Positions 28,568-64,000 of a DNA stretch of 64,000 nt are shown piece by piece (position 1 is the stretch's first letter; every line of letters starts with the position of its first letter). The DNA comes from Hamadaea tsunoensis DSM 44101 (GTDB lineage Bacteria; Actinomycetota; Actinomycetes; Mycobacteriales; Micromonosporaceae). The stretch covers positions 124,001-188,000 of the forward strand of contig NZ_AUAX01000014.1 of the NCBI RefSeq assembly GCF_000428945.1. The letters are read 5' to 3'. The translations under genes were made by a program, and so were the position numbers. The notes under the pieces were generated by a model. That model searched no databases, was not told where the DNA came from, and was given only the letters and a program-made list of their open reading frames with translations.

Positions 28568-29728
28568 CTAACGACCCAAGGGCGCGCCTACCGCCGCCAT
28601 CCATGGCGCTGGGTCAGTCGAGTTGACATTGTCGGCGGGCTCACCGTTGGTCAGGTGGACCTCGAAATGGAGGTGGGGTCCGCTGGAATGGCCCGAGCTG
28701 CCGACGAAACCGAGGACTGTGCCCGCGGCGACGGTTTGCCCAACGGTTACGGAAGGCCGTCTTCCCATATGGCAGTACCGAGTGATGACGTCGGTGATCA
28801 TGTGGCCCTGGTACCACAAGTGCAGGGTGTGGCGGACTTCGACGTACCAGCCGCATCCGCTGACGTTGGTGCCGCCGTCGCGGTCGCAGGTTCCAATGCC
28901 GGAGTCGCATCGGACTTTGATGACGGTTCCGGCGGCGGCGACGTGGATGGGGGTGTTGCGGGCGGCGCCGAGGTCGTCTCCGGCATGGAGTCGGCCCGCG
29001 CGTTGTCCGTACGGGCTGACGATCGCGGCGTGGACCGGCTGTGTCCATCCCTGGGGTCCGACAGCGACTGCCGGTATGGTGTCGGTGCCGCAGGGGGCGG
29101 GCGGGGCGCCGCCGGCGATCTGCTCGACGCTGGTGACGCCAGCGAGGGCAGCGACGAGCGCTTCCGCCGGTTGCTCCCATTTCTGGTACGCCTGCGGGTA
29201 TGCCGAGTGTTGTACGGCCTGGGCGGCGTCGGTGAGTCGCATCTGTTGCCAGCCTTGGATTTTGGCGAGGGCGTTGTAGAACTTCTCGGTGGCGATGTCG
29301 GGGTTCATGAGCTCCGCGACAGTGCCCCAGGATCCCTTTCCAGCGGGCGGATTAGGGCGTTGCTGGAACAGTCCGAGGGAGTCATGGTCGTGCCCCGCGC
29401 CATCGTGCGGGTACGCCATGGACGCAGGTACGCCGGTGTTGGCGAGGTTGCGCAAGCTGCTTTCTTGCATGGCGGTCGCGATCGCGATGACCCAGCCGCG
29501 CGGCGGAACGTGTGTGCGCTGCCCGGCGCCGATAATGGTGGCGGCTCGCTGCTGCTGGAGAGGACTCCATCGTTTGTCCGGTGCGCCGGGCGCAGCAGGT
29601 TGTGGAGCTGAGCCGCAGGCGGCCAGTGCGGGCGAGCCGAGCATCGGCAGTACAAAGCCGATCGAGCACAGCAGGAGAAGGATCGCTCCGGCCGTGACGG
29701 TCATGATGAGTCCGACATGACGGTTCAT
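28568..29728 (-). CDS. Conjugation-associated cell-wall hydrolase (lytic transglycosylase-like plus M23 peptidase)
   Basis: A 386-residue exported protein. A transmembrane or signal segment lies at about residues 7-30. A lysozyme-like/NlpC-associated transglycosylase-type region (A-M-Q-E-S-S-L-R-N then S-L-G-L-F-Q-Q-R-P) supplies a catalytic-type glutamate. The C-terminal M23 metallopeptidase has zinc ligands H-A-G-D-D and H-L-H-F. It would open the cell wall locally for the transfer channel, like VirB1/TcpG/CwlT-type proteins. The start at 29728 is chosen because it overlaps the lipoprotein stop (ATGA); a longer start at 29767 exists. Confidence 0.87.
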   Translation of the reverse strand: MNRHVGLIMTVTAGAILLLLCSIGFVLPMLGSPALAACGSAPQPAAPGAPDKRWSPLQQQRAATIIGAGQRTHVPPRGWVIAIATAMQESSLRNLANTGVPASMAYPHDGAGHDHDSLGLFQQRPNPPAGKGSWGTVAELMNPDIATEKFYNALAKIQGWQQMRLTDAAQAVQHSAYPQAYQKWEQPAEALVAALAGVTSVEQIAGGAPPAPCGTDTIPAVAVGPQGWTQPVHAAIVSPYGQRAGRLHAGDDLGAARNTPIHVAAAGTVIKVRCDSGIGTCDRDGGTNVSGCGWYVEVRHTLHLWYQGHMITDVITRYCHMGRRPSVTVGQTVAAGTVLGFVGSSGHSSGPHLHFEVHLTNGEPADNVNSTDPAPWMAAVGAPLGR

Positions 29729-30216
29729 GCGGCGCTCGGGGCGAAGTCGACGTCGGACACGAGCCATCGTCCGCCGATGGCGGCGACGGTGAGGCTGAGG
29801 GTGCCGGTGTCGGTGGGGACCTCGAAGTGCAGGCCGGTCTCCGGTGTGCCGCTTGACTGCTGGGGCGAGCCGATCACGCGAGACGCCGGGACGCCTTCAG
29901 GGTCGGTACCGCGCAGGCTCGCGGCCAGTCCGTCTTCGCACCACGGCTGAACTCCGGTCCACCAGGTCGTCGGATCGGTGGTCGGTCGGACCCACGCATC
30001 GGCGAACCCTGCCGCGACGATGTCGGCATCCGCAACTGGCGGGGCATTGGCCAGGCCTTCGTCGTCGATGCCGACGTCGGGGGCTGCGGATGTAGCGGCA
30101 GTGCGGTTGGCCGAAGAGTCGGGCTGCGGAGTCGGAGCTGGCTGGTCTGGCGTGGAGCACGCGGCGGTGAGAAGCAAGACGCTCAGCAGAATGTGCGCAC
30201 TGGTGAGGGCCTTCAT
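29725..30216 (-). CDS. Transfer-region lipoprotein
   Basis: A 163-residue lipoprotein with signal peptide and lipobox L-T-A-A-C (Cys20), followed by a Pro/Ser/Thr-rich linker and a small C-terminal domain with alternating beta segments (L-H-F-E-V-P, L-S-L-T-V-A-A-I, W-L-V-S-D-V). The last segment resembles the NTF2-like end of VirB8-type or conjugation accessory proteins. GGAGGAG lies 4 bases before the ATG. It is divergent from the secretion operon and coupled to the hydrolase gene. Confidence 0.75.
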   Translation of the reverse strand: MKALTSAHILLSVLLLTAACSTPDQPAPTPQPDSSANRTAATSAAPDVGIDDEGLANAPPVADADIVAAGFADAWVRPTTDPTTWWTGVQPWCEDGLAASLRGTDPEGVPASRVIGSPQQSSGTPETGLHFEVPTDTGTLSLTVAAIGGRWLVSDVDFAPSAA

Positions 30217-30261: not shown

Positions 30262-30303
30262 TTATTGTCTGTACGTAAAGATAGTGTACGTACATACGTT
30301 AAA
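30262..30303. promoter_or_regulatory. Paired inverted motif in the divergent transfer promoter
   Basis: Two copies of a 20-bp motif in opposite orientation: on the minus strand CTTTACGTACAGACAATAAG and on the plus strand GTGTACGTACATACGTTAAA, two bases apart. The plus copy contains TACGTACATACGTTAA (30287-30302), which is identical to a sequence upstream of the relaxase (62268-62283). The site sits between the lipoprotein operon (leftward) and the secretion operon (rightward), so one regulator could control both. Confidence 0.65.
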
Positions 30304-30357: not shown

Positions 30358-30894
30358 ATGCAGAGATCAACTACTCTGCGGCGTACGCGCCGCCTGACAT
30401 CCAGCACGCTCGGGATCGCGACGTCGCCTGCGGCATCACCGATCGGTGGCCCGCTGCGATCGCTTCGGTGGCTTGGCGTACACGGCGGGGCCGGCGTGTC
30501 CGCGCTGGTGAGCCTGACCGGCATTGGCCACGACGCAGGAGCTGTGTGGCCGGCCGATGACGGCTCGCAGCATGTGCCGGTGGTCGTGGTGTGTCGGGCG
30601 ACCGGGACCGGATCAGCGGCGTGTGCCACCGCGATCGAGCAGTGGCGGACGGCACCGGCGCTGCGGCACGTGGACCTGGTGGGCCTGGTCGTGGTCGCGG
30701 CAAGCCCCAAGCCCGTTCCCGACCCAGTGACGGCTCGGCTGCTGCTGATGTCGGGTTGGGTGCCCAATCACTGGTGGATCGGTTGGCAGGACGCCTACGT
30801 GGCGGCTGACGACGTGCGTACCGCCGGGCCGAGCCCCGACGTGATCGCACTACGAGACAGCCTTAGCGGACTTTTGAACGGGGCGGCGTCATGA
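30358..30894 (+). CDS. DUF6668-like P-loop protein of the transfer operon
   Basis: A 178-residue protein with a degenerate P-loop G-V-H-G-G-A-G-V-S-A (near residues 44-53), followed by V-W-P-A-D-D and V-V-V-V-C-R-A, the layout I associate with DUF6668 proteins in actinomycete conjugative elements. The Lys of the P-loop is missing, so nucleotide hydrolysis is doubtful. The start ATG 30358 follows GGGGGG. ATGA overlaps the next gene. It is the first gene of the secretion operon. Confidence 0.68.
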   Translation: MQRSTTLRRTRRLTSSTLGIATSPAASPIGGPLRSLRWLGVHGGAGVSALVSLTGIGHDAGAVWPADDGSQHVPVVVVCRATGTGSAACATAIEQWRTAPALRHVDLVGLVVVAASPKPVPDPVTARLLLMSGWVPNHWWIGWQDAYVAADDVRTAGPSPDVIALRDSLSGLLNGAAS

Positions 30895-31205
30895 CCGTCG
30901 GCGGGGGCATACTGCACATGCTGTCCACAATGGTTGGTGATCCGACGCCCGGCCCGGGAACGGTCCCCGACCCCGGTGGCGGACAGATGCCACCCGGAGT
31001 CATCGGTGAGCGGGTCCTGCTGATCCTGAAGTGGGTCGCGGCGGGTGCGACGGCCTGCTGCGTCGGCGGGGTGCTGTACATCGCCGGGAAGATGGCCATC
31101 GCGCATCGGCGGGGCGACGAGATCGAGCTTGCGTCGCTGGGCCGGGTGCTGTTCGCATGTCTGCTCATCAGCTCGGCGACAGCGATCGTCACAGCTCTGA
31201 TCTAG
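30891..31205 (+). CDS. Small transfer membrane protein (VirB2/TrbC-like topology)
   Basis: A 104-residue protein with a proline/glycine-rich N-terminus and two transmembrane helices at about residues 42-66 and 83-103, separated by a short charged loop (R-R-G-D-E-I-E). Size, topology and position fit the pilin-like VirB2/TrbC component, although sequence similarity cannot be judged by eye. It lies between the DUF6668 gene and the VirB8-like gene in the operon. Confidence 0.68.
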   Translation: MTVGGGILHMLSTMVGDPTPGPGTVPDPGGGQMPPGVIGERVLLILKWVAAGATACCVGGVLYIAGKMAIAHRRGDEIELASLGRVLFACLLISSATAIVTALI

Positions 31206-31213
31206 GAGGCACG

Positions 31214-31957
31214 ATGTCCGCATCGGACAGCACGACCCGGCGTTCGCGTGTGCGGCTGTTGGTAGTAGCCACCGCGGTGGTGGCGGTCTTCGCCGCCGTC
31301 GCCATTCTCCTCGTCGTCCGGTCCGGCGATACGCCGTCCGCGAGCGCCCCGTCCCCGGCAACGTCGTCCACCGTCGTATCGGCGCAGGATGAGTCAGCGC
31401 AGCCGGCGCCGTCGAGCGAACCGGTCGTGGCTTTGCCGACGAGCGCTCCCAACGGCCTGACCTGGCGCCTGATCGGTCAGGTCGCAGTGCCGGTCTCCTC
31501 CTCCGACGGGCCGCAGCGAGTCACCGAAACCTCGGCGAGCGGGTACGCGCGTACGCCGGTGGGTGCACTGGTCGCGGCCGTGCAGATCAGCACCCGGGCT
31601 GGGTTTTCGGCCGGACGGCCGTCGTGGGAGGCCGCGCTGCGCGATCAATTCGTCGCCTCCGCCGACCGAGACTTGCTGCTCGGTATTCTGCGCGACGCAG
31701 CGGCAGCCGGTCAGCAGCCTGCCGCCGCCGGGGAGCTGAGCCAGGTCGCCGGATTCCGCTACCTTTCCTACACGCCTGACACGGCGGTCATCGCAGTGGT
31801 TCGCCGTACTCCGCAGGGCAGCTACGCCCAGACGACCCTCACCGCCGTGTGGCAGTCGGGCGACTGGCGGCTGATGGCCCCCGCCGGTGGCCAGTGGCCG
31901 TCGGCGACCAGCGTCCTGAGCAACCTGGCCGGCGTGATCCCGTGGGGGGCGGGCTGA
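31214..31957 (+). CDS. VirB8-like bitopic transfer protein
   Basis: A 247-residue protein with one transmembrane helix at about residues 13-34, a Ser/Pro/Ala-rich stalk and an exported domain of about 150 residues ending in beta segments (A-V-W-Q-S-G-D-W-R-L), the outline of NTF2-like VirB8/TcpC proteins. VirB8 organises the periplasmic part of type IV secretion channels. AGGAGG lies 4 bases before the ATG. Family assignment rests on topology and position. Confidence 0.7.
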   Translation: MSASDSTTRRSRVRLLVVATAVVAVFAAVAILLVVRSGDTPSASAPSPATSSTVVSAQDESAQPAPSSEPVVALPTSAPNGLTWRLIGQVAVPVSSSDGPQRVTETSASGYARTPVGALVAAVQISTRAGFSAGRPSWEAALRDQFVASADRDLLLGILRDAAAAGQQPAAAGELSQVAGFRYLSYTPDTAVIAVVRRTPQGSYAQTTLTAVWQSGDWRLMAPAGGQWPSATSVLSNLAGVIPWGAG

Positions 31958-33147
31958 TGGGCTGCAACCCGCTGACCGACCCATCGTGCATCACAGACCT
32001 GCCCGGCCAGGTTCTCGGCAGTGCCGCCGATCAAGCCCTCGCGACGGTCGCCGACCAGATCGGTACGTTCGTCGCGAGCCTGGTGAAGATCGTCGTGGCC
32101 GGATGGCTTCACATTCCCTCGCCGACCGTAGCCACCGACCTAGACGCGGCCCTGTCGGGCGACTACAGCGGCGCGGTCGCGCACTTGCGTGCCTCGACGT
32201 GGTGGCTGACGGCCGCGCTCGCGGTCGGGTCGCTGCTGGTCGCCGCCGGGCGGATTGCGGTCAACCGCAACGGCCGGGAGGCCGCCGACGTCGGCCGGGG
32301 ACTTATCCACCTCGTCGTGGTGGCGTTCATGGGCGTACCACTCGTACTGCTGCTGACGCAGATCGGCGACATCTACAGCAGTTGGATCATCGACCAGTCG
32401 ACGCAGGGCGGCTTCGAGGAGCGCATCGGCGCCCTCACCATGATCGGCGGGCCGGGCGCCGTGGCGTCTCCGAGCTTGAGTTCGGTCGGAGTGATCGTCG
32501 TCGGCGGCATCACCGCGGTCACGATGATCATGCAGATCCTGCTCGCGTTCGGCCGATCGGTGGGCCTGGTACTGCTGACCGGTGCGCTGCCCGCAACCGC
32601 CGCTGGCGGGATGACCGAACGCGGCGCGCAGGCCCGCGACAAGGCCACCACTTGGCTCGTCGCGTTTATCTTGTACAAACCGGCTGCGGCGACGATCTAC
32701 GCGACGGGCTTCTGGCTGATCGGCGATGGCCGCACCTTGAACGACATGTTCGCCGGCCTGATGACCTTCATCATCGCCCTGGTCGCCCTGCCGGCGTTGA
32801 TGCGCCTGCTGACCCCGGCCGTCGAGCGGCTGTCCCAAGGCGCCGGCTCGGGTGCGATGCAGGGCTTGGCCGTCGGCACGTCGATGGCGACCGGCGCGGT
32901 CGCGGTCGGCGGAGCCTTGGGCCGCATGCGCGGAGGGTCCGACGGTGGAGGGAGCGGTGGGGGCGCGCCGGGCCCGACCCCGGCCAGCGGCGCCACGGCG
33001 GCGACCGCCGCGGCGGCGGGCGGCCCGGTCGCGGGTATCGCCGCAGTCGGTGCCGAGAAGGCGAAGCAGACGGTGGACAAGCCCCGCGAGGCCGTCGAGA
33101 GCGCTGCCGCGGTCGGAGCGACGGGAGCCACCGGGGGACGCTCGTGA
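31957..33147 (+). CDS. VirB6/TrbL-like polytopic transfer protein
   Basis: A 396-residue membrane protein. An N-terminal exported-type segment with two cysteines (M-G-C-N-P, S-C-I-T-D) is followed by about six hydrophobic helices between residues 80 and 295 and a long Gly/Ala/Pro-rich tail. These are typical of the TrbL/VirB6 channel core in Gram-positive conjugation. It overlaps the VirB8-like gene by one base (TGATG) and the SCO6880 gene by GTGA. Confidence 0.8.
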   Translation: MGCNPLTDPSCITDLPGQVLGSAADQALATVADQIGTFVASLVKIVVAGWLHIPSPTVATDLDAALSGDYSGAVAHLRASTWWLTAALAVGSLLVAAGRIAVNRNGREAADVGRGLIHLVVVAFMGVPLVLLLTQIGDIYSSWIIDQSTQGGFEERIGALTMIGGPGAVASPSLSSVGVIVVGGITAVTMIMQILLAFGRSVGLVLLTGALPATAAGGMTERGAQARDKATTWLVAFILYKPAAATIYATGFWLIGDGRTLNDMFAGLMTFIIALVALPALMRLLTPAVERLSQGAGSGAMQGLAVGTSMATGAVAVGGALGRMRGGSDGGGSGGGAPGPTPASGATAATAAAAGGPVAGIAAVGAEKAKQTVDKPREAVESAAAVGATGATGGRS

Positions 33148-34601
33148 GCGCCACCAGCCCGACGCAACCCCAGCCCCGCACGTACGGCAACTGGCGTCGC
33201 GGTCTGCGGCCGGGATTGTTCGGCTTCGGCCCGGCCGCGACGGCGATCGCGTTCGCGGTCATGGTCTGCGGGGCCGGGTCTCTGATCCTCTCGAAATGGG
33301 TGGCCCTGGCCATCGTCGTAGTCGGTGGATTGACACTGACGCCGCTCGCGGTGCGCTTTCATGGCCGCACTGGGGCGCAGCTGTTGGCGGCCCGGCTGTT
33401 GTGGCTCGCAGGCCGGCGCCGACGTAGCCACCTGTACGTCACCGGGCTCGCCTCGCCGGTCAGCCAGGCCCACCGGCTGCCCGGCATCCTGGCCCGATCG
33501 GTGCTGTGGGAGGTCGAGACAGGTCTGCGTACGCCGCTCGGCGTGGTCGTGATCCCGCAGAGCCGTCACTACAGTGTGGCCCTGCGCTGCCAGACCGACG
33601 GCCTGGACCTCGTCGACCAGCCCGTCGTCGACCAGCGCGTGGCCCGCATGGCGCAGTTCCTGTCCGCGCTGGCCCGCGAACCGATGCTCGTCCAGGCGCA
33701 GGTCACCGTCGAGACCACCCCGGACCCAGGGGTTGCCTTGGCCGGCGAAGTCGCCCGCACCACCGTCGAGCACGCGCCGGCCGCCGCCCGGCAGGTTCTC
33801 GCCGACATCGTCGCCTCCTATCCGGTCGGGGCGGCGCACGTCGACACCTGGGTCGTCCTCACGTTCAAGCCGCCTGCCCGCGGAACCTGGACCGACGACG
33901 CCGTCTGCACCGAGATCGCCACCCGACTGCCGAGCCTCGTGCAGTCCCTCCTCGGCGCCGGGGCGTCGGCGGTCAACCCGATGAGCGGCGACGACCTCGC
34001 GCTCACGGTCGCCGCCGCCTACGACCCGGCTACCGCCTCCCACGCCGCTGCACCCGGCGCGCCAACTTGGGACAACGCCGGCCCGGTCGCCGCCCACGAG
34101 ACGTGGGACGCCTACCGGCACGACTCGGGCACCTCGCGTACCTGGGGCATGGCCGAAGCGCCGCGCGGAACCGTCTACGCCAACGCGTTCGCCCGACTGG
34201 CCGACCCGGACCCGACCCTGCTGCGCAAACGCGTGTCGATCATCTACCGGCCGTACTCGCCCGGCGCCGCCGCCGCACTCGTCGAACGCGACCGCCGCGA
34301 CGCGATGTTCACCGCCGCGAAGAAGCGCCAAGCGACCGCCCGCGACAACATCGACGTCCAAGCCGCCGAGCAAGCCGCCCGCGAAGAAGCGACCGGGGCC
34401 GGAATCACCCGCTTCACCGTGCTGGTGACCGCGACCGTCCGCAACCCGGCCGACCTCGACGACGCCGAGTCGATGACCTTCGCCCGCGCCGGCGAAGCGA
34501 GGGTCACGCTGCGGACTATGTACGGCTCGCAGGCCGCCGCGTTTGCCGCCAACCTGCCCACCGGCGTCGTCCTGCCCCACCACGCCAGCCTGCGGATCTG
34601 A
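33144..34601 (+). CDS. SCO6880 family type IV secretion protein
   Basis: A 485-residue protein starting at GTG 33144. The N-terminus has two close transmembrane helices (about residues 26-65), as in PrgI/VirB3-like proteins. The large cytoplasmic domain includes R-L-P-G-I-L-A and a long helical hairpin (R-D-R-R-D-A-M-F-T-A-A-K-K-R). This matches the SCO6880 family found in actinomycete conjugation operons, where it is thought to stand for a VirB3 fused to the N-terminal part of VirB4. The true VirB4-type ATPase follows as a separate gene. Confidence 0.85.
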   Translation: MSATSPTQPQPRTYGNWRRGLRPGLFGFGPAATAIAFAVMVCGAGSLILSKWVALAIVVVGGLTLTPLAVRFHGRTGAQLLAARLLWLAGRRRRSHLYVTGLASPVSQAHRLPGILARSVLWEVETGLRTPLGVVVIPQSRHYSVALRCQTDGLDLVDQPVVDQRVARMAQFLSALAREPMLVQAQVTVETTPDPGVALAGEVARTTVEHAPAAARQVLADIVASYPVGAAHVDTWVVLTFKPPARGTWTDDAVCTEIATRLPSLVQSLLGAGASAVNPMSGDDLALTVAAAYDPATASHAAAPGAPTWDNAGPVAAHETWDAYRHDSGTSRTWGMAEAPRGTVYANAFARLADPDPTLLRKRVSIIYRPYSPGAAAALVERDRRDAMFTAAKKRQATARDNIDVQAAEQAAREEATGAGITRFTVLVTATVRNPADLDDAESMTFARAGEARVTLRTMYGSQAAAFAANLPTGVVLPHHASLRI

Positions 34602-34620
34602 CCCCTGCCGAGGAGGAACC

Positions 34621-36144
34621 ATGCGCGCAAAGACGACGGCGTACCCGTCGGCCGCCGAGCAGACCAACGAGGCCGACACCATGCCGCGCGGGCAACGACC
34701 GGCAGGCCCGCGAGGCTTCGCCGGCCCGACCGGCGGTCGCATGTCCTATGTGGAAGAACCGATCGAGTATCGTGGGACGACGGTGCAGGTGTGCGGGCTG
34801 TGGCCATTCGGGGTCGGCAGCTCGACGCCGATGGTCGGCGTACCGATGGGACGCCACCTGTACACCGGCAATACAGTCTGCTTCGACCCGATCTCCTGGT
34901 TCACCCGAACGAACCTGATCAACAGCCCGTCGGTGTACATCCTCGGCGAGCCGGCCATGGGCAAGAGTTCCGCCGTACGTCGGATGGTCCTCGGCTTGAC
35001 CGCCCAAGGCGTCACCCCGCTGATCCTCGGCGACCTCAAACCCGACTACGCCGACCTCGTCCGCGCCCTGGGCGGACAGGTGCTGCGGATCGGATCGGGC
35101 CTGGACCGGATCAACCCCCTCGACGCTGGCCCGTGGCGCAACGTGCTGTCGCGCGTCGACGCCAAGACCGGCGCCCAAGTCCGCGCCGGGGTCGTGGCCC
35201 GGCGTACCAACCTGGTCGGCGCGCTCATGCACTTGGTCCGCCGCGGCCCCGTCACCTCCGACGAGACCACCGTCCTGACCGCCGCGATCCGGCTGCTGTC
35301 CGAACGCGAAGACGAGACTCAGCCAGTGCTGTCGGACATCCTGCGAATCATCCAACAGGCTCCGGCCGCGGTGCGAGCCGTGACGCTGTTCACCGCCGAC
35401 ACCGACGCAGACGCTAACCGGTTCCGCGACGACACCGCACCGTTGCAACGCACCCTGCTCGCGCTGCTGCACGGCCCGATGAGCGACACCTTCGAAGGCC
35501 AGACCACCACACCCATCGACCTGGACACCCCGGCGGTGTGCATCGACATCTCCGGCATCGACGAAAACGATGAGCTGCGCACGGCGGCCAGCCTGCTGTC
35601 CACCTGGTCCTACGGCTTTGCCCAGGTCGACGCCGCACACCTGCTCGCCGACCTCGGGCTCGCGCCAGCGCGCACCTTCATGGCCGTCATGGATGAGATG
35701 TGGCGGGCTCTGCGTGTCGGGCATGGTCTGGTCGACCGGGCCGACGGTCTGACCCGCCTTAACCGCCAGCGCGGTACGGGCGTCGCGATGATCACCCACA
35801 GCCTCGACGACGCCGCCGCCCTGCCCACGCCCGAGGACCGGGCCAAGGCCCGCGGCTTCGCCGACCGGTCCGCCGTGCTGATGATCGGCCCCTGCTCGGA
35901 AGCCGAACTCGACGCCGTACACCGCGTACGCAACCTGTCCGACGCCGAACGCCGCGAAGTCCTCAGCTGGACCGCCCCGCCGTCATTCGCCGCCAACGAC
36001 GCCCCACCGGCCGGCCAAGGCAACTTCCTGATCAAGGTCGGCAGCCGGCCAGGCATCCCGGTCCACCTCGAACCAACCAGCGCCGAACTCCGCTGGGGAA
36101 ACACCAACGCCCGCTGGAACCTCCATAAAGGAATGCCGCGATGA
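34621..36144 (+). CDS. VirB4-like conjugation ATPase
   Basis: A 507-residue ATPase. Walker A is G-E-P-A-M-G-K-S-S near residues 113-121, D-L-K-P-D-Y the strand-2 region, and Walker B-like V-M-D-E-M-W-R-A-L lies in the second half, followed by T-R-L-N-R-Q-R-G-T-G and a T-H-S segment typical of VirB4/TraC. It energises assembly and DNA transport. AGGAGGA precedes the ATG; the first 40 residues are disordered. It overlaps the coupling-protein gene by ATGA. Confidence 0.85.
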   Translation: MRAKTTAYPSAAEQTNEADTMPRGQRPAGPRGFAGPTGGRMSYVEEPIEYRGTTVQVCGLWPFGVGSSTPMVGVPMGRHLYTGNTVCFDPISWFTRTNLINSPSVYILGEPAMGKSSAVRRMVLGLTAQGVTPLILGDLKPDYADLVRALGGQVLRIGSGLDRINPLDAGPWRNVLSRVDAKTGAQVRAGVVARRTNLVGALMHLVRRGPVTSDETTVLTAAIRLLSEREDETQPVLSDILRIIQQAPAAVRAVTLFTADTDADANRFRDDTAPLQRTLLALLHGPMSDTFEGQTTTPIDLDTPAVCIDISGIDENDELRTAASLLSTWSYGFAQVDAAHLLADLGLAPARTFMAVMDEMWRALRVGHGLVDRADGLTRLNRQRGTGVAMITHSLDDAAALPTPEDRAKARGFADRSAVLMIGPCSEAELDAVHRVRNLSDAERREVLSWTAPPSFAANDAPPAGQGNFLIKVGSRPGIPVHLEPTSAELRWGNTNARWNLHKGMPR

Positions 36145-37943
36145 GTGGGCGCCGCCCGCGAGGCACCAGCGGCGACGAACCGAGCATCGTCCTCGGCATC
36201 CTCGCCGCTGCCATCCTCGCCCCAGCGTTTCTCGTGTGGGTGCCGCTGGCGCTCGCCCAGCCACCCGACTATCCCGGCGGCGGACCGGTCAGCGTCTTGC
36301 TCGCTCTGGTGCGGGGCCGCATCACCTGGACCGCCGGCGCCACGGCGTACGCGGCCGGCGAGGCGGCGGTCCTAGGCGTACTCGCCGGCCTCGGGTGGCT
36401 ACTGCGCCGGCGTGGACGCGAGGTACGCAGCCGCGTCGACTGGGCCGCCCGGCGCATGGCCAAACCGCGAGACCTCGCCAAACTCTCCCCGGCACATGTC
36501 GCCAAGTCCGCCCAGCGGCTACGCCCCCGCATGCCCGCCACCAGCGACCCGGACGAGCACGGCGTACCGATCGGCACGACCGTCTACGGCGCGATCGCGC
36601 TGCGGCAGACGTGGGAAGACATGGCCATCGACATCTGGGGACCTCGCACCGGAAAGACCACCTCCCGAGCCATCCCGGCGATCGTCGCCGCCCCCGGGCC
36701 AGTGGTGATCACCAGCGTCAAGGGCGACATCGTCGACACCACCCATGACGTACGCGCCCGACGCGGCCGATGCTGGGTCTTCGACCCCATGTACCTGATG
36801 AAGCGCGAGGTCAACGAGCCTGGTTCGCCCACGTTCTACTGGAATCCGCTGCGCGGCATCACGACCATCACCGCAGCGAGGCTGCTGGCCGAACACTTCT
36901 CGTTCTCCGAACAGTCCAACGGGACCATGTCGCCGCGCGATCCGTTCTTTGACACCAAGGCCCAGGACTTCATCGCTGCCCTCATCCTCGCCGCCGCCAT
37001 CACCGCCCGGACGCTGATCGACGTCTACCTGTGGACCACGAACCAGCGTGAGACCGAGCCCGGCGATATCCTCAAAGCCCACGGCTACGCTTTGCCCGCC
37101 GAGTCGATGTACGGGGTTCTGGCCATGCCCGACCGCACCCGGGGGTCGGTGTACGCCATCGCCGAAGCATCCCTGAGCGTCCTGACCGAACCGTCGGTCA
37201 CCGACTGGATCACCCCTGGTCACGGCAACATGGACGAGTTCCTCGTCGACGCGTTCGTTGTCTCCACCGACTCGCTCTACCTGCTCTCCCGCGGCGGGCC
37301 CGGCTCCCCGGCCCCGTTGATCGCCGCGTTCGTCGACGCGGTCCAGCGCGCCGGCGAAGCAGCCGCGCGCCGGTCACCGGGCCGCCGCCTCGACCCGCCG
37401 ATGCTCACCGTGGCCGACGAAGCGGCCAACATCGTGCGGATCAAACGGCTGCCGGACCTGTTCAGCTTCTACGGATCGCTCGGGCTGCCGGCCATCGTGA
37501 TCCTTCAGTCGTACGCGCAAGGCGAGATGGTCTGGGGCGCTGGTGACATGAAGAAGATGTGGGACGCGGCCAACGTGCGCACCTATGGCGGCGGCGTGGT
37601 CGACATCAAGTTCCTGGAAGACCTGTCGCGGCTGATCGGGCACGATTGGCAGATGGTCAAGAGCGTCAGTACGCAGAGCCGCAGCTGGGACCGGACCGTC
37701 AACCGGCAACCGCAGCGACTTCCGCTGCTGGAAGTCGATGACCTGATGGCGCTGCCGGTCGGACGCATGATCCTCATCCCGTCCGGCGCCCCGGCCGTGC
37801 TAGTCCGCACGCAGCCATGGCAAGCCGGCCCGTACGCCGACCAGGTGCGCGAGTCGCTGGCCCACTGGGATCCCGACCCCGGCGAGCACAGCTACGACCC
37901 GGCTTTGCTGCCCGAGGACACCCTGCTGGAGACAAGGCCATGA
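36141..37943 (+). CDS. VirD4/TraG-like coupling protein
   Basis: A 600-residue protein with two N-terminal transmembrane helices (about residues 15-35 and 67-89) and a cytoplasmic ATPase domain. Walker A is G-P-R-T-G-K-T-T near residues 171-178, S-V-K-G-D follows, and Walker B is L-T-V-A-D-E-A-A-N-I. Coupling proteins bring the relaxase-DNA complex to the secretion channel. It overlaps both neighbours by ATGA. Length and motif order match the VirD4 family of Gram-positive systems. Confidence 0.9.
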   Translation: MSGRRPRGTSGDEPSIVLGILAAAILAPAFLVWVPLALAQPPDYPGGGPVSVLLALVRGRITWTAGATAYAAGEAAVLGVLAGLGWLLRRRGREVRSRVDWAARRMAKPRDLAKLSPAHVAKSAQRLRPRMPATSDPDEHGVPIGTTVYGAIALRQTWEDMAIDIWGPRTGKTTSRAIPAIVAAPGPVVITSVKGDIVDTTHDVRARRGRCWVFDPMYLMKREVNEPGSPTFYWNPLRGITTITAARLLAEHFSFSEQSNGTMSPRDPFFDTKAQDFIAALILAAAITARTLIDVYLWTTNQRETEPGDILKAHGYALPAESMYGVLAMPDRTRGSVYAIAEASLSVLTEPSVTDWITPGHGNMDEFLVDAFVVSTDSLYLLSRGGPGSPAPLIAAFVDAVQRAGEAAARRSPGRRLDPPMLTVADEAANIVRIKRLPDLFSFYGSLGLPAIVILQSYAQGEMVWGAGDMKKMWDAANVRTYGGGVVDIKFLEDLSRLIGHDWQMVKSVSTQSRSWDRTVNRQPQRLPLLEVDDLMALPVGRMILIPSGAPAVLVRTQPWQAGPYADQVRESLAHWDPDPGEHSYDPALLPEDTLLETRP

Positions 37944-38505: not shown

Positions 38506-40197
38506 CCTCCCTCGTTCGCTTAGCCGGTGATCTTGGCTCGGCGAGGTGTCAGCATCGAGGCGTGTCGCTGTTATGTGGTTGCGGGCATGGCGAGGGCCGG
38601 CGTCGGGCCGGGGCCGTGGTCTCCGAAGGTTCCTGCGTGGGTGGTCAGCGACGATTGCTGCTGGTCAGGTGGCTGGTTGTGGGAGGGCGGCCAGGCGGGC
38701 GAAGGCGGCGGCGAGGTCGGCGGCCCAGGGCCAGGTGGCGGGGAGGCGTAGCCGGATCTTTCGGGCGGTGCGGGTGATCCGGGCGGGTACGTGCAGCAGC
38801 CGGTAGCGCAGCTTCTTCGGCTCAGCGCGGGTCAGATAGCCGTCGCAGAGCAGGTGGCGGGTCCAGGCGAGCAGGTCGATGCCGCACAACGCGAGTTCCA
38901 GCCACGCGGCGTTGATCGCGAACTCGCGCGACGGGAACCGGCCGAAGCCTGAGTCCTTGCCGGGGCGGATGCGGTCTTCGACCCTGGCGTGTGCGCGGTG
39001 GCAGACCTCGAGGAACTGCATGCTGCCGTGCCCGATCGGGGTGTCGGTCGCGGTCGCTTGATGCCGCCAGCCGGCGTCGAGGTCGAACAGGGTCAGCTGC
39101 GCGCCGGGGTGCGGTCGTTCGCGGCGGACGATGAACCGTGTGCCCCGCGGGTAGTTATCGCGGTAGCCGGTCGGCAGCAAGGTGGTGATCTCGCAGACCT
39201 GCGCGCTGTCGCGCAGTTCGCCGTCGGCGCCCAGCGCGTCGACCCAGCCGCGCTCGTCGCAGGCGATGATGGCGTCGCGGACCGGTTCGGTGACCGCGAC
39301 CCCGACCGAGAACCGGGCGTTGACGCCCTGTCCGCGCAAGGATCGGATATACGCGAGGAAGCCGTGGCTGGCCCCCGCCGAGTCGCTGCGGATGAGGATG
39401 TCGGTGCCGTGCCGCAGCGGGTCGGGCAGCTGGGCCAGGGCCATGTCGAGCACCGCGATGTGGTCGGCGGTGGTGTTCGACCCCGCGCGGCCCTCGCGCA
39501 GCAGCCCGGCCAGGGCCTCGCCGGTGGCGTCCAGGAAGCACAGCAGCGGGTGGTAGCCGAAGGTCGTCTTCCAGGTCGGGCTGGCGCCTTGCTTGTCGGA
39601 GTGGCAGATCACGATCGTCGCGTCGATGTCCAGCACGATGCCGGGGATCGGCCGCCCGGCCGCGGTGGAGGCCGGCATTCCGCCGCGGGTCTGGAACGCC
39701 TGTGCCCAGGCCAGTTCCCGCGCGGCTGCCCGGGCTTGGCGCAACCGGCCCAGCGCCGCGCTGTCCATAGCGGACAGCAGCCGCCACGCGGTCGGATCGG
39801 AGGCGACCGCGCCGAACAACTCCGGCTGATCGCGTAGCACGGCCAGGTCGGTGATCGTTTCGCCGCCGTCGGCGAGCATCACCGCCAGATCGACCGCGAT
39901 CCGGCCCGGATCATGGCCGCGCTCGCGCTTCCGCAACGGTTTCAGCGCATCGCCGAACCCGCCGGACAGACCGGTGGCGTCGGCCAGGTCGGCCAGCAGC
40001 CGCGCGCCGGCGTGGCCGACCACGCCCCGCCCGTCAGCCGTGACAGCGATCTTCGGACGCGTTGAGGTAGTCTTCACCCTGCGAGTGCTTTCTGAGATGG
40101 ATGGTTTGGGCCTTAGACAAGCCAAATCTTTCCAGATCAGAAGGCACTTTCGCGTTCCTGGACCACGATACGGGCAGCCCTTAGCGAATCGCTGAGG
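38506..40197 (-). mobile_element. Intact IS1380-family insertion sequence, 1,692 bp
   Basis: The left end CCTCCCTCGTTCGCTTAG (38506-38523) and the reverse complement of the right end, CCTCAGCGATTCGCTAAG (40180-40197), are imperfect inverted repeats sharing CCTC, TTCGCT and AG in register. Both ends are flanked by CTAA (38502-38505 and 40198-40201), a 4-bp target duplication. Length and single transposase gene fit the IS1380 family. The element lies between the DUF4913 gene and the 3' end of the dual-HTH regulator, apparently without breaking either. Confidence 0.85.
38665..40077 (-). CDS. IS1380-family transposase
   Basis: A 470-residue DDE transposase. The start is V-K-T-T-S-T-R-P-K (GTG 40077), which fits related IS1380 transposases better than the longer ATG at 40125. 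Key acidic positions appear in V-L-D-I-D-A-T, I-L-I-R-S-D-S-A-G and the C-terminal R-V-E-D-R-I region. The reading frame is uninterrupted, so the element may still move. It cuts and pastes the element using its inverted ends. Confidence 0.9.
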   Translation of the reverse strand: MKTTSTRPKIAVTADGRGVVGHAGARLLADLADATGLSGGFGDALKPLRKRERGHDPGRIAVDLAVMLADGGETITDLAVLRDQPELFGAVASDPTAWRLLSAMDSAALGRLRQARAAARELAWAQAFQTRGGMPASTAAGRPIPGIVLDIDATIVICHSDKQGASPTWKTTFGYHPLLCFLDATGEALAGLLREGRAGSNTTADHIAVLDMALAQLPDPLRHGTDILIRSDSAGASHGFLAYIRSLRGQGVNARFSVGVAVTEPVRDAIIACDERGWVDALGADGELRDSAQVCEITTLLPTGYRDNYPRGTRFIVRRERPHPGAQLTLFDLDAGWRHQATATDTPIGHGSMQFLEVCHRAHARVEDRIRPGKDSGFGRFPSREFAINAAWLELALCGIDLLAWTRHLLCDGYLTRAEPKKLRYRLLHVPARITRTARKIRLRLPATWPWAADLAAAFARLAALPQPAT

Positions 40198-46708: not shown

Positions 46709-46969
46709 CCCCGTTCCCCCCGTGGTGGTCTGCATCCAGCGTGCCCCGCCACAACGCACGCCGCAAGAAGGATGTACTGTGATAATCTTGAATGTACCGG
46801 TATATATTGGGGCGCGGCTTCGCGGAATGCCTGGCACACTGGGAGATTGACTATCTCGTCACGGGGGTGCCGGAGATGGCAAGGCGACGTGCTGCGCCGA
46901 GGAACAGGGATTTTGAACAGCTGTCGCTCTGGGGTGCAGAGACAACGTGGACAGACGGGGAGGGTCTTG
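46709..46969. promoter_or_regulatory. Divergent promoter region
   Basis: 261 bases between the mobilisation gene and the plus-strand genes, AT-rich around 46775-46810. GATAAT at 46781-46786 resembles a -10 box for rightward transcription, and the palindrome TACCGGTA lies within GTACCGGTAT nearby. A frame from ATG 46876 is open but becomes a shadow of the next gene after about 35 residues. Confidence 0.4.
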
Positions 46970-47341
46970 ATGAACCGCTACGGGGCGTTGGCGATGAAGC
47001 ATTGGCGCGAGGAGTTCCCGAACCGGTTCTCCCAGATCGAGGACCCGCAGAGGTTCTTCACGGAGCTGGGAGCGCAGGTCTCGACCGAAATCGCGGACCT
47101 AGCGGCGGAACTGGCGGCGCAGGAGCCGTCGAGTGGGACGTTCCTGGCGAATCTCGGCAACCAGCGGACGTCGACGTCGCGGGCGGAGGAGATCGTGCTG
47201 GCGCAGCGGGTGTACCTGACGGAGGAGACCGACGAGAGCGACAGCTCCCAGCCGGCTCAGGAGCAGAGCTGGACGCCGCTGGTCGAGGATCCCTCGGACC
47301 CGTGGTGGCAAGCCGAACGCGACAGCGGCCGTCTGGAGTAG
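46970..47341 (+). CDS. Conserved 123-residue protein preceding the methylase-helicase
   Basis: A small soluble protein beginning M-N-R-Y-G-A-L-A-M-K-H-W-R-E, with a helical middle (R-F-F-T-E-L-G-A-Q-V then E-I-A-D-L-A-A-E-L) and an acidic Ser/Gln-rich tail ending D-P-W-W-Q-A-E-R-D. I recall this opening from small proteins that precede large helicase genes in actinomycete elements. GGAGG lies 6 bases before the ATG. Probable partner of the following giant protein; activity unknown. Confidence 0.72.
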   Translation: MNRYGALAMKHWREEFPNRFSQIEDPQRFFTELGAQVSTEIADLAAELAAQEPSSGTFLANLGNQRTSTSRAEEIVLAQRVYLTEETDESDSSQPAQEQSWTPLVEDPSDPWWQAERDSGRLE

Positions 47342-58043: not shown

Positions 58044-61000
58044 TCACGAGGTGCCTTCATAGCTCGTCTGTGTGTGTTCGACGCCGTGGCCATTCGCGGT
58101 TTCACGGGCGACGCGGCGGTCGGCTACCCGTGCTTTCGCCAGCGCGGCGCCAAGGTCGGTGGGGTACGCAATCGCAGCGCGACCGTCGGGAGTCGGCCGA
58201 GCAGAAGCCGTCGAAGCGCTGGAGGAAGCTGCGCGCTGACCGTTTGTATCCAGTCCCCGTCGTCGCAGTTCGATGACTGCGCGTTTCGCGGCCTGCCGAT
58301 GGTGGTCAGTATGGGCGTGCCAGGCGGCGCGGGCCTCGTCGATCAGCGTCAGGTCGCGAGTGGTTGCGAAGAGTTGGTTGGCGGTACGCAGGTGCTCGTC
58401 TGCCTGGGCGTACAACTGCCGCCGCTGATGCTCCTCACCGTTGATCGCGGCTTCGGCTCGTTTGAGGTGAGCTTCTTGTTCGTGCCATCGGGCCAGGCCG
58501 GACTGGTCGCGAAGGCCATCGGCGACCCACGCGGGCGCCCACTCTTGCTGGCGGGTGTAGGTCTCGACAGCGGCGACCAGCGCCGGCACGGTCATTGTCG
58601 TTTCGGCTGCCAGGTCGTTCGGTTCGCCGAGAGCGCGCCAGGCGGCGAACCATGCCGCGCGTGCTTCGGGTAGTCCGGGCTTGGGGCAGCCGCCGATCGG
58701 GTCGGTGTCATCGGTGATCTGGTACTGCTCGCGGAATCCGGCGATGACACCGGCGCGGCGGATCCACTCCCGGCGGCCGTGTTCGTTGTCGGGGATGGGG
58801 CCGAGTCGTGTGGACCATGTCGGGGGTCGGGCTGCGGCTTCGCCGCCGAGCAGGGTGCAACGGGCGTCCATCGCGGCGGCGACTGCGACGGCGTACTGGC
58901 TGATCGGGTCGCGGGCGGTAGGGGTTCGCGCCGTCCAGGTGTCGCCGGTCGGGAGTAGCCGGTCGCCGTGCCGGGCCGTGATGCGGTGGTGGAGCACCTT
59001 GGCCACGGATTCGGCGGTCCACAGTTCGCGTTCGGTGGCGGCGTCGTCGAGGAGGCGGCGCGGGTCGTGGCCGGCCAGTTCGGCGCCGCGTACCAGCCGC
59101 CACAATGAGGTGACCGCTTCATCGGCCAGCAGTTGCGTGGCGAGCCGGGGATCGAGGTGTGAGTCGGCGGTGAGGTCGTCGACGATCGCCCAGTAGCGGG
59201 CTTCCACGGCCAGCGCGTTGGCTTCGGCCCAACGTGACCCGAGGACGGGCAGCGAGCCGGCTGCTTCGGCGAGTTGTTCCCGCAGGTCGACTGCGGCGAG
59301 GTCGGGCTGGTCGCGTTGCACGACGGCGGCAAGGATCTGTCCGGCGGACGGCCGCATGTCCTTGCGGCGTGCGGCGTCGGTGGGCTCTGGACCGGTCGGC
59401 GCGAGTTCGGTGAGCGTGTCCGTGGCGACGTGTGCGACGGATCGCACCCGGCCGCGGGTCATGGCGACGTAGAAGGCGTTGGTGTCGGTGCGGCTGGTGA
59501 TGATGGGGTAGCAGGTGTCCACGGTGCTGCCCTGGGCGGAGTGCACGGTGACCGCGTAGCCGAGGGTGACGTGGTGGGCGACGTAGGCAGCGGGGAGATC
59601 GAGTTCGGGTCCGAGTTCGCGTTGGCCGTTGTGGTGGCCGGTGATCCGGCGTACGCGCAGCCCGCCGTCGTCGAGGAGGCTGGTGACCTGCCACATGTCG
59701 CGGTTGATGACGGCGCGGCCGTAGGAATCGGTGATGCGCCAGTCATTGCGGCGGGTCTGGATGATGTCACCGACGCCAGCGACGGTGTCTTCGGCGTCAC
59801 GGTGATGCAGTTCGACTCCGTCGGCGCTGACCCGGCCCAGATCGACCAGTTGGGTGCGCAGCCGCGCGGACAGCTCGGCGGCTTGTTCGCCGGTGCCGAC
59901 GACGAGCAGCGACTGGTAGCCGCCGAGGGTGTCAGCGAGCCACGCGCGGGCGGCGAGACGGCCAGCGTTCTCGGCGCTGCCACCGTCGACGATGCGGCCG
60001 TGGCGCTCGTAGACGGACAGCACGTTCGGGTCGGCGTCGCGCAGGCGTAGTGATGCAGCCCGTTCCCACGGCGCGGCGAATCGGCGTACCTCGTCGAGGG
60101 TGAAGGTTCGGCCGTGGTTGGTCATGAGGCGGAACGCGCCGCCGGCGCCGACGGCGCCGAGTTGGCGTTCGTCACCGACCACGATGAGCCGAGCACCGGC
60201 GTGCGCGCAGCGGGCGACGATGGCGGCGACTTGGCTCGTGGACGACATGCTGGCTTCGTCGAGCACGACGAGGTCGCCGGGCTGTAGGCGGGCCGCCAGA
60301 TCGGGGCTGTTGGTGGAGCCCGCGTCGAGGCGGGCTTGGCGTTGCAGCCACCGGTCGACGTTGTCGGTTCGGGTGAAGCCTTCCTCGGCGAGCACAGCGG
60401 CGGCGCGCTGCCCGGTGGCCAGGCCGATCACCGACCGGCTTGTGTGGTGTTGCCACAGCTGGGCGGTCATGCCCATGACGAAGCTCTTGCCGGTCCCGGC
60501 CGGGCCGACCACGGTGACGACCGGTTCGGTGGCGGTGAGCAGGCCGCGGATGACGGTGGCCTGGTCGGCGCCGAGTTCGGTGCCCTGCTCGGCAAGGCGG
60601 GCCAGCGCGGCGTCGACGTCGGCCGGGGCGATCGTGAGAGCGCCAGCCCGTCGGGCGACGGCCCGTACCAGGCTCTCCTCGGCGGCGATGTGGCCGCGGG
60701 TGGCGTACACGGTCTCGGCGGGTGCCTCGAACACCGATCGGCCGTCGTTCAGGCGCAGTTCGGTGGGTACCTCGATCAGGTCCGGGGCATTGAGCCGAAG
60801 GACCACATCGTCGGTCGCGGGCATGTCGGGGTTGAGTGCTCTGTCGGCGAGTTCGTCGAGCAGCCGGACGACTTGGACCGCGCCGAGCCCACCGAGGCAG
60901 GCGGGTAGGTGGCTGTTTAGGGCGCGGATGAGGTCGAAGCGGGTCCAGCTCGCCTTGGTGGCCTGCACCTGCTCGACCGCTTGGGCGATCACCTCCGCCG

Positions 61001-62228
61001 GAGAAAAAGCGTCGGGTTGCAGCTCGTCGACCCGATCAGGCACTTCGGCGGCGATCTGGGCCAGGCTCTCGTCGACAGTCGAGCGCAGTTGGCGCTCCCA
61101 TCGGTCCAGGCGGTCGGTCAGGCTTTCCTTGTGGCGCTTCTTCGGTGCTCGGGTTGCCTTCGACGCCTCGCGGGCAAGCTGCGATAGTTCGAGAGCGTTG
61201 GGTGGCCGGCTCCGGCGTTGCTCGAACCGGGCAACGAGATCTTTGACCGCGGTGGTGACGTCGCGACGGCGGCGGGAAAACAGCCGCCGCGCCGGTACGG
61301 ACACACCGACCAGCTCCAGGGTGTGGCCATCTTCGGACCAGCGGACCTGCACGCCGAGGGTTTTGATGGCTTGCTCGGTCATCACCCGTTCGGCGATCGC
61401 ACCGGCGGCGCCGCGCATGCGATGGATGGCCCGTGAGTCGAGCGTGCGCCAGCGTCCGTCTGCGCACTCGACGCGGTTGAGGACGGCGTTGTGGATGTGC
61501 AGGTGCATGTCTTCTGCACGGCTCGTGTGTTGCAGGAACGACGCGACGACCCACGCGTGCGCGTCGATCCACCGCCCGACCGAGCCGCCGGTCGGTGTGC
61601 GTGCACCGTGGTATCCCGCACGCGAGAAGCCGGCGTGATCTTGCAGGTATTCGAGCGCGGCGGTGTTGCCCGCCCAGATTGCACGCTCCAAGAGTTCGAT
61701 CTTGCGTGTCCAGTCGCCGGGAGTGCGTGCACGGCCGTCGGCATGTGCACGGTCCTCTTGTGTACGAACCTCTTGTGCACGTAGCGCAGTGTGCAAGATC
61801 GAAAACGACTTCGGTACGCCGAACGTGAGATCAAGGAACGCCACCGGCGTGCGTGCACGCCGCTCGGATGCGCGCTTCAGCTCCTCGACGCGCTCGGGTT
61901 CTGCGTCGGGCTCACGGGCCAGCGCCTCAGCCAACAGTTCCTCGGCCGTCGCGTACTTGCGTGGCGGTCGGCCCAGCCGTGCGGCATGCCGCCAGCCGCG
62001 CCGGCCGTCGCGGAAGGCGGGGTCGCGCGGGTCGACGAAGTGGACGTAGACGCCTTCCATGTCCTGCTCGTCGACCGGTCCGATCAGGCCCAGGGGTGCG
62101 GTCCCGCGACCTTGCCAGATGCCGGGTGGCTCGCCGCGGCCGACCTCGCGGGTGTAGTAGTTCTCGCCGCCGTTGGCGACCTCGCCGGTGAGGTAGCGCG
62201 GGTTGTAGCCGGTCGCGATCGAGAGCAT
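58044..62228 (-). CDS. MobF/TraA-type conjugative relaxase-helicase
   Basis: 1,394 residues. The N-terminal relaxase domain has T-G-Y-N-P-R-Y-L at the start and the metal-binding H-L-H-I-H near residue 240. Superfamily-1 helicase domains follow (Walker A G-P-A-G-T-G-K-S near 575, then V-L-D-E-A-S and a late Q-G-S-T-V-D-T). It nicks the transfer origin, stays bound to the DNA 5' end and unwinds it for export. Start ATG 62228 has AGGAGG (62237-62242) 8 bases upstream and fits the family N-terminus; the ATG at 62276 lies inside a regulatory motif and is rejected. Confidence 0.92.
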   Translation of the reverse strand: MLSIATGYNPRYLTGEVANGGENYYTREVGRGEPPGIWQGRGTAPLGLIGPVDEQDMEGVYVHFVDPRDPAFRDGRRGWRHAARLGRPPRKYATAEELLAEALAREPDAEPERVEELKRASERRARTPVAFLDLTFGVPKSFSILHTALRAQEVRTQEDRAHADGRARTPGDWTRKIELLERAIWAGNTAALEYLQDHAGFSRAGYHGARTPTGGSVGRWIDAHAWVVASFLQHTSRAEDMHLHIHNAVLNRVECADGRWRTLDSRAIHRMRGAAGAIAERVMTEQAIKTLGVQVRWSEDGHTLELVGVSVPARRLFSRRRRDVTTAVKDLVARFEQRRSRPPNALELSQLAREASKATRAPKKRHKESLTDRLDRWERQLRSTVDESLAQIAAEVPDRVDELQPDAFSPAEVIAQAVEQVQATKASWTRFDLIRALNSHLPACLGGLGAVQVVRLLDELADRALNPDMPATDDVVLRLNAPDLIEVPTELRLNDGRSVFEAPAETVYATRGHIAAEESLVRAVARRAGALTIAPADVDAALARLAEQGTELGADQATVIRGLLTATEPVVTVVGPAGTGKSFVMGMTAQLWQHHTSRSVIGLATGQRAAAVLAEEGFTRTDNVDRWLQRQARLDAGSTNSPDLAARLQPGDLVVLDEASMSSTSQVAAIVARCAHAGARLIVVGDERQLGAVGAGGAFRLMTNHGRTFTLDEVRRFAAPWERAASLRLRDADPNVLSVYERHGRIVDGGSAENAGRLAARAWLADTLGGYQSLLVVGTGEQAAELSARLRTQLVDLGRVSADGVELHHRDAEDTVAGVGDIIQTRRNDWRITDSYGRAVINRDMWQVTSLLDDGGLRVRRITGHHNGQRELGPELDLPAAYVAHHVTLGYAVTVHSAQGSTVDTCYPIITSRTDTNAFYVAMTRGRVRSVAHVATDTLTELAPTGPEPTDAARRKDMRPSAGQILAAVVQRDQPDLAAVDLREQLAEAAGSLPVLGSRWAEANALAVEARYWAIVDDLTADSHLDPRLATQLLADEAVTSLWRLVRGAELAGHDPRRLLDDAATERELWTAESVAKVLHHRITARHGDRLLPTGDTWTARTPTARDPISQYAVAVAAAMDARCTLLGGEAAARPPTWSTRLGPIPDNEHGRREWIRRAGVIAGFREQYQITDDTDPIGGCPKPGLPEARAAWFAAWRALGEPNDLAAETTMTVPALVAAVETYTRQQEWAPAWVADGLRDQSGLARWHEQEAHLKRAEAAINGEEHQRRQLYAQADEHLRTANQLFATTRDLTLIDEARAAWHAHTDHHRQAAKRAVIELRRRGLDTNGQRAASSSASTASARPTPDGRAAIAYPTDLGAALAKARVADRRVARETANGHGVEHTQTSYEGTS

Positions 62229-62306
62229 CTGTGCCACCTCCTCGCAGGTAGCAGCGCCTTCGGGGTTTACGTACATACGTTAACGAGGTAAGTGTACACA
62301 CGTAAA
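62229..62306. promoter_or_regulatory. Relaxase promoter with paired inverted motif
   Basis: TACGTACATACGTTAA (62268-62283) is identical to 30287-30302. A second, diverged copy in the opposite orientation is TTTTACGTGTGTACACTTAC when read leftward from 62306. The pair begins about 40 bases before the relaxase start, where an operator or activator site would lie. Confidence 0.65.
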
Positions 62307-63772: not shown

Positions 63773-64000
63773 TCACACGTCGTACGCGACGGAATCGGGT
63801 ATGAAGCCCGCGACCGGAACATACTCCCGAACGACCAACGCCGGCGCCCCCGCCGAGCGCATGACCACAACCTGCACCGTCGTCGCCGCAGGCGCACCGG
63901 GAATCCAGATCTGCCGCCGGTCGCCGTCTTCCACGAACTCGCAGCGCGTCGCTGCGTCCCACAGCTCGTGCAGGAAGCTGCTCGACTCGACAACCTGTTC
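63773..64000 (-). CDS. C-terminal part of an unknown protein
   Basis: An open minus-strand frame runs from the window edge to TGA at 63773-63775 and encodes the last 75 residues of a protein. It alternates strands and helices (F-L-H-E-L-W-D-A-A-T, I-W-I-P-G-A, V-Q-V-V-V-M-R, V-R-E-Y-V-P-V) and has good codon use. It begins outside the window. No family recognised; a terminator hairpin follows. Confidence 0.6.
   Translation of the reverse strand, partial: EQVVESSSFLHELWDAATRCEFVEDGDRRQIWIPGAPAATTVQVVVMRSAGAPALVVREYVPVAGFIPDSVAYDV

Follow-up and report, generated by a model that had tools for sequence, protein, structure and literature searches.

Paired palindromic boxes point to a probable element-wide repressor regulon in a conjugative element of Hamadaea

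The occurrence of one short sequence at two promoters of a transfer region raises the question of whether a common regulator coordinates synthesis of the conjugation channel with processing of the DNA and, if so, which protein reads the sequence and how far its regulon extends. Here we address this question in the window, the whole stretch of 64,000 nucleotides under analysis (bases 124001-188000 of the 297-kb contig C12, in a Hamadaea genome of 9.48 Mb), using gene starts and promoters called from sequence in this analysis; coordinates without a contig name are those of the window. The starting observation of an earlier note, a 16-mer shared by two promoters, is borne out: TACGTACATACGTTAA occurs exactly at 30287-30302 and 62268-62283.

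With up to three mismatches allowed, TACGTACATACGTTAA has three matches in the window against 0.01 expected, a count that no shuffle reached, and the sole further match is the partner at 30262-30277. Each site had been described as a pair of inverted 20-bp copies; the paired, inverted structure stands, but the pairs are better described as two 18-bp near-palindromes whose second copies have diverged. In full, the motif is an 18-bp palindrome with the reported 16-mer as its core, TTWACGTA-CA-TACGTTAA, made up of two 8-bp half-sites and a 2-bp centre, and the spacing between boxes is 23 bp from start to start (and from centre to centre) in all six pairs of the element described below. The boxes of the window, scored with a matrix from boxes outside it, are the following.

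30262..30279, minus strand: T4SS-pair operator box 1, TTATTGTCTGTACGTAAA, 25.8 bits
30285..30302, plus strand: T4SS-pair operator box 2, TGTACGTACATACGTTAA, holding the reported 16-mer, 28.0 bits, 23 bp from box 1
62266..62283, plus strand: relaxase-pair operator box 1, TTTACGTACATACGTTAA, holding the reported 16-mer, 32.6 bits
62289..62306, minus strand: relaxase-pair operator box 2, TAAGTGTACACACGTAAA, diverged, 16.8 bits, 23 bp from box 1

This held-out matrix, trained on the ten boxes outside the window and then scored over contig C12, placed the four window boxes (16.8-32.6 bits) among the top 14 sites of the contig, on which the best non-box sequence scored 11.8 bits; the maximum across five Markov simulations was 14.6 bits. 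A genome scan with the motif had been proposed as a check in which many unrelated sites would count against the idea, and all good sites were found inside a single element. A relaxed single-box pattern yielded 16 oriented matches in the 9.48-Mb genome, all at C12:103.5-186.3 kb, versus one for the reversed control pattern, and the matrix delineated 14 boxes at eight loci, all within that element. In this genome the sites are thus essentially confined to the promoters of one mobile element.

Judged from its genes and flanking repeats, this is an integrative and conjugative element (ICE) of Hamadaea of about 113.9 kb, integrated in tRNA-Lys, and the window lies wholly inside it. Its attL and attR are an exact 3′ tRNA-Lys repeat at C12:101403 and 215253, and the attachment gene and the recombination genes adjoining it are these.

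C12:101354-101427: tRNA-Lys(CTT) gene
C12:101490-102740: phage integrase, adjoining the tRNA
C12:103153-103320: HTH_17 excisionase, adjoining the tRNA

The assignment to an ICE follows from the integrase, the excisionase and the repeat in the tRNA gene together with a relaxase, a coupling protein, an SCO6880-family protein and a VirB4-like ATPase, the last of which is a weak match; excision and transfer are predicted from this gene content. Among 354 other genomes of the family, none has more than one site matching the ICE box with one mismatch, indicating that the family holds no near relative of the ICE. A relaxase scan of genome contigs found no close relative either, and the best plasmid relaxase shares only 39% identity with that of the ICE.

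The 14 boxes are distributed over the element as follows.

C12 103503+103526: pair flanked on the left by the excisionase and integrase and on the right by a replication-type HTH_36 protein
C12 110084+110107: pair flanked on the left by an ATP-grasp ligase and an MFS transporter and on the right by a short peptide and a secreted protein
C12 112269: single box preceding a pyridoxal-dependent decarboxylase-like gene
C12 112441+112464: pair preceding the gene for a small ribbon-helix-helix (RHH)-like protein
C12 117207+117230: pair at the 3′ end of an MmyB-like gene (MmyB-A), ahead of a four-hairpin array
C12 117509: single box preceding an asparagine-synthase-like gene
C12 154262+154285 (30262-30302): pair between divergent T4SS operons
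C12 186266+186289 (62266-62306): pair preceding the relaxase

The two pairs of the window do stand where they had been placed, ahead of a secretion operon and of a TrwC/MOBF relaxase, and the former also serves a divergent partner operon. The genes concerned are listed below.

30358..37943, plus strand: rightward T4SS operon, with small proteins first; the box pair ends 55 bp before its first start codon
33216-34601, plus strand: SCO6880-family protein of this operon
34741-36144, plus strand: VirB4-like ATPase of this operon (weak match)
36141-37943, plus strand: TraG/TraD coupling protein of this operon, above the Pfam cut-off
28568..30216, minus strand: leftward operon, divergent from the T4SS operon
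29725-30216, minus strand: lipoprotein of the leftward operon
28568-29767, minus strand: M23-family peptidoglycan hydrolase of the leftward operon; the homologous gene in Streptomyces elements also has upstream boxes
58044..62228, minus strand: TrwC/MobF relaxase-helicase, above the profile cut-off, with a GGAGG ribosome site before ATG 62228

This ATG, about 37 bp downstream of the box pair, is the probable relaxase start, rather than the mechanical ORF start at 62276, which falls inside a box. Other features of the region include a DDE transposase (insertion sequence) at 38665-40125, directly downstream of the T4SS operon, and a 3,193-aa open frame at 46792-56373, inside the transfer region, which gave a weak Eco57I-methylase match when part of the frame was tested; a plasmid of M. 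zamorensis carries a 15.5-kb UvrD-helicase-domain gene near its transfer genes. Between two operator loci to the left of the window, at C12:117255-117460 (L017:11255-11460; window -6745 to -6540), lie four consecutive strong hairpins (-133 kcal/mol, z -7.6 versus shuffles) with no credible family match in Rfam; the array may be a structured RNA or a single-strand origin whose transcription would start at the box pair at 117207-117247.

The idea of a common regulator for channel synthesis and DNA processing is thus well supported by eight loci that share the box, all in the ICE, and its reach appears wider than first proposed, extending to excision, replication and cargo; the part that did not hold concerns the candidate regulators. 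The regulators on the ICE comprise two MmyB-like proteins, an ImmR-like XRE protein accompanied by an M78 protease and a DUF6545 protein, further XRE proteins and the RHH-like protein, and among those listed only the last has a box pair at its own promoter.

C12:112498-113061: small RHH-like protein, 11.5 to 10.9 kb to the left of the window

A sigma-70-like promoter search was decisive for this promoter only (TTGAAC-N17-TACGAT), where the boxes extend from about -7 to +34, the pair starting at the end of the -10; this is a site at which a bound protein blocks rather than activates. At several other pairs a half-site (TAACGT) can itself serve as the -10 hexamer. We consider it likely that the boxes define an element-wide, autorepressing regulon under a master repressor and that the RHH-like protein reads them; both binding and repression are predictions from sequence. 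RHH dimers would occupy the half-sites, paired boxes would be bound co-operatively, and the bound protein would occlude the promoters, its own included, so that the excision, replication, channel and relaxase genes and some cargo genes would stay off until a signal weakens its binding. The ribbon-helix-helix fold itself is putative, resting on weak matches to Pfam RHH_1 (E 0.1-0.19), PHROG Arc-like repressors (E 0.03-0.15) and, in the PDB, EndoAI (E 0.4) and chain 2kel (E 1.7); the AlphaFold model contains a helix pair, but at low confidence and with no Foldseek match.

Comparison with other actinomycete elements, in stretches of 80 kb or less each, bears on the assignment of the reader. A scan for RHH homologues returned ten loci, and in seven of them (Streptomyces, Wenjunlia and Mangrovactinospora) a box of the same layout, GTAnnGTCTGTACAcA / GTAACGTCTGTACACAA and variants, lies over the -10 of the RHH promoter, with further boxes of type AGTGTMTATACACT within the same loci; the promoter box was seen in loci L086-L092 and L111. 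An RHH gene found later, without regard to boxes (genome G485), has the promoter box too. In the T4SS-bearing Streptomyces-type elements, related boxes stand at numerous promoters, among them the promoter of the element's own RHH homologue, and of the 47 boxes in five stretches of four elements, 44 are intergenic and lie for the most part 20-180 bp ahead of a start codon. The ICE and all four compared elements have just two proteins in common, the RHH protein and the cell-wall hydrolase; the hydrolase operon carries boxes in the ICE and in the compared elements alike. Exact box cores in these RHH genomes fall mostly on the element's own contig(s), and among 298 Streptomycetaceae genomes at least four box cores occur in three of five with the RHH gene versus none of 293 without it (Fisher p about 2e-6, which overstates independence, as the Streptomyces elements are interrelated). 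G485, the fourth of the five, has no counted box cluster yet keeps the box at its RHH promoter. Relative to the boxes of the ICE, those of the Streptomyces elements show two or three differences per half-site; pair spacing in other elements is 16-39 bp, often 21. No RHH homologues were found on plasmids, and homologues closer to the ICE protein, at 42-44% identity in Hamadaea chromosomes and in a Catenulispora MAG, lack such a box, so that box and protein do not track perfectly; a strand arginine of the RHH does not tell homologues with boxes from those without. In Mangrovactinospora G361, contigs C136 and C162 are both rich in boxes, some of them perfect palindromes (e.g. CTAGTGTCTATACACTAG), and probably represent one split element or two elements.

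Another regulator of the ICE might read the boxes instead, namely one of the two MmyB-like proteins or the ImmR-like XRE protein, the latter with its ImmA-like protease as in ICEBs1, and we regard this as unlikely. The three candidates are encoded at these positions.

C12:116435-117241: MmyB-like A
C12:187773-188558 (63773..64000, continuing to 64558 outside the window), minus strand: MmyB-like B
C12:115740-116144: ImmR-like XRE protein

All three are encoded on the element, XRE dimers recognise palindromes of this length, the set of XRE protein, M78 protease and DUF6545 protein is present on the ICE, and one box pair coincides with the 3′ end of MmyB-A. Against them, the promoters of all three genes are free of boxes, that of the XRE gene being conserved among homologues with a different sequence, and none of the three is shared with the box-bearing Streptomyces elements. 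A Catenulispora locus (L085) has homologues of MmyB-A (47%), the XRE protein (55%) and the ATP-grasp/MFS cargo, and yet no boxes, and there are none on the M. zamorensis plasmid with the best plasmid homologue of MmyB-A. The Catenulispora locus weakens all candidates somewhat, since it also encodes an RHH homologue (42%) without boxes; the RHH protein is favoured because it is present in every box-bearing element. Promoter and synteny evidence therefore sets back MmyB-A, MmyB-B and the ImmR-like XRE protein as readers. The regulators nominated in the earlier note are not supported: the promoters of the element's MmyB-like and XRE genes are without a box, and two of these proteins have close homologues in the box-less Catenulispora locus. 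The XRE/TPR protein at 7207-8535 fares no better, having neither a box of its own nor a consistent homologue in the box-bearing elements.

A cargo set at C12:107408-117241 is also present in the Catenulispora MAG (L085:9857-19986), comprising the RHH, MmyB-like and XRE proteins, the M78 protease/DUF6545 proteins, an ATP-grasp ligase, an MFS transporter and small secreted proteins; it may be a small peptide or amino-acid-ligase biosynthetic unit. Within it, the XRE, M78 protease and DUF6545 set (C12:115202-116144; loci L056-L060) is a separate regulatory system, with a promoter of the form CATAGAGTGAtc...TTGTCAAc...GATTACA conserved across genomes of the family. MmyB-type paralogues with GLRREE motifs in the same genome (G000; e.g. 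L063, L070) seem to carry TGGCAGTACCAGG-like promoter repeats, which may be a clue to the operator of the MmyB family itself.

The mode of action admits a different reading, in which the common regulator activates transcription, or activates and represses depending on the promoter. By eye, some box centres (at the Asn-synthase promoter and at the replication promoter at 103.6 kb) lie some 36 to 44 bp ahead of a potential start, as expected of an activator, but at the RHH promoter and at several pairs the boxes extend over -10 to +34 or themselves provide the -10 hexamer, and we regard this reading as unlikely. We deem it very unlikely that the boxes are structural DNA sites, for a relaxosome accessory protein, partition or replication, rather than transcriptional operators: RHH proteins are common as relaxosome accessory proteins (PMC12857230) and one pair does lie beside the relaxase gene, but the boxes occupy eight scattered promoter-proximal loci, cargo genes included, and the intergenic, start-proximal placement noted above recurs in other elements. 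The notion that paired boxes are the -35 and -10 elements of a dedicated sigma factor, suggested by the 23-bp spacing that sets TTAACG and TAACGT 18 bp apart in several pairs, deserves hardly any credence, given that the boxes are palindromic and also occur singly, that pair spacing varies in other elements, and that a normal -35/-10 lies upstream of the boxes at the RHH promoter.

For T4SS-type ICEs of actinomycetes, the analysis puts forward a specific gene, an operator defined to 18 bp and the regulon predicted from it, and hence a directly testable switch; a published review of conjugation control in Gram-positive bacteria treats almost only low-GC hosts (PMC6540685). The results further suggest that the element turns on its metabolic cargo genes along with transfer; a metabolite would then be tied to mobility. 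A more ambitious proposal, to which we give slightly less than an even chance, is that the RHH-like proteins form an undescribed family of master repressors with their own evolving palindromic operator, providing one switch for T4SS-type conjugative elements of actinomycetes and also governing cargo biosynthesis and possibly the four-hairpin RNA from one operator.

Several known systems share features with the proposed regulon. MmyB has been proposed to work via pseudo-palindromic B-boxes within an antibiotic cluster (PMC3406030), and two members of the MmyB/MltR family are present on the ICE, but the comparative evidence separates both from these boxes. RcoLS20 of pLS20 and PrgX of pCF10 are tetrameric repressors acting on paired operators at transfer promoters (PMC6540685), an arrangement that recalls the pairs described here; they belong to other protein families and act at one main promoter region, versus eight loci across 83 kb in the ICE. 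In ICEBs1, the repressor of the ImmR/ImmA pair keeps excision and transfer genes off (PMC6540685), and the Hamadaea element is likewise an ICE with an XRE and M78 protease pair of this type; its XRE promoter lacks the boxes, and the pair itself is not shared with the compared box-bearing elements. The closest functional parallel to the proposed repressor is ArtA of the staphylococcal plasmid pSK41, an RHH master regulator and repressor with six sites on one plasmid that controls transfer operons and its own divergent gene (PMC6540685). The RHH-like protein shows no detectable close relation to ArtA, and no PDB match to it, and has a conserved region before the RHH; the setting differs as well, in that the host is a high-GC actinobacterium, the element is an ICE, and boxes are also found at xis-int and cargo genes. 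As with ArtA, the same operator is repeated (14 boxes, eight loci) at transfer promoters of a single element, and the operator recurs at the promoter of the putative regulator itself (pair 112441/112464).
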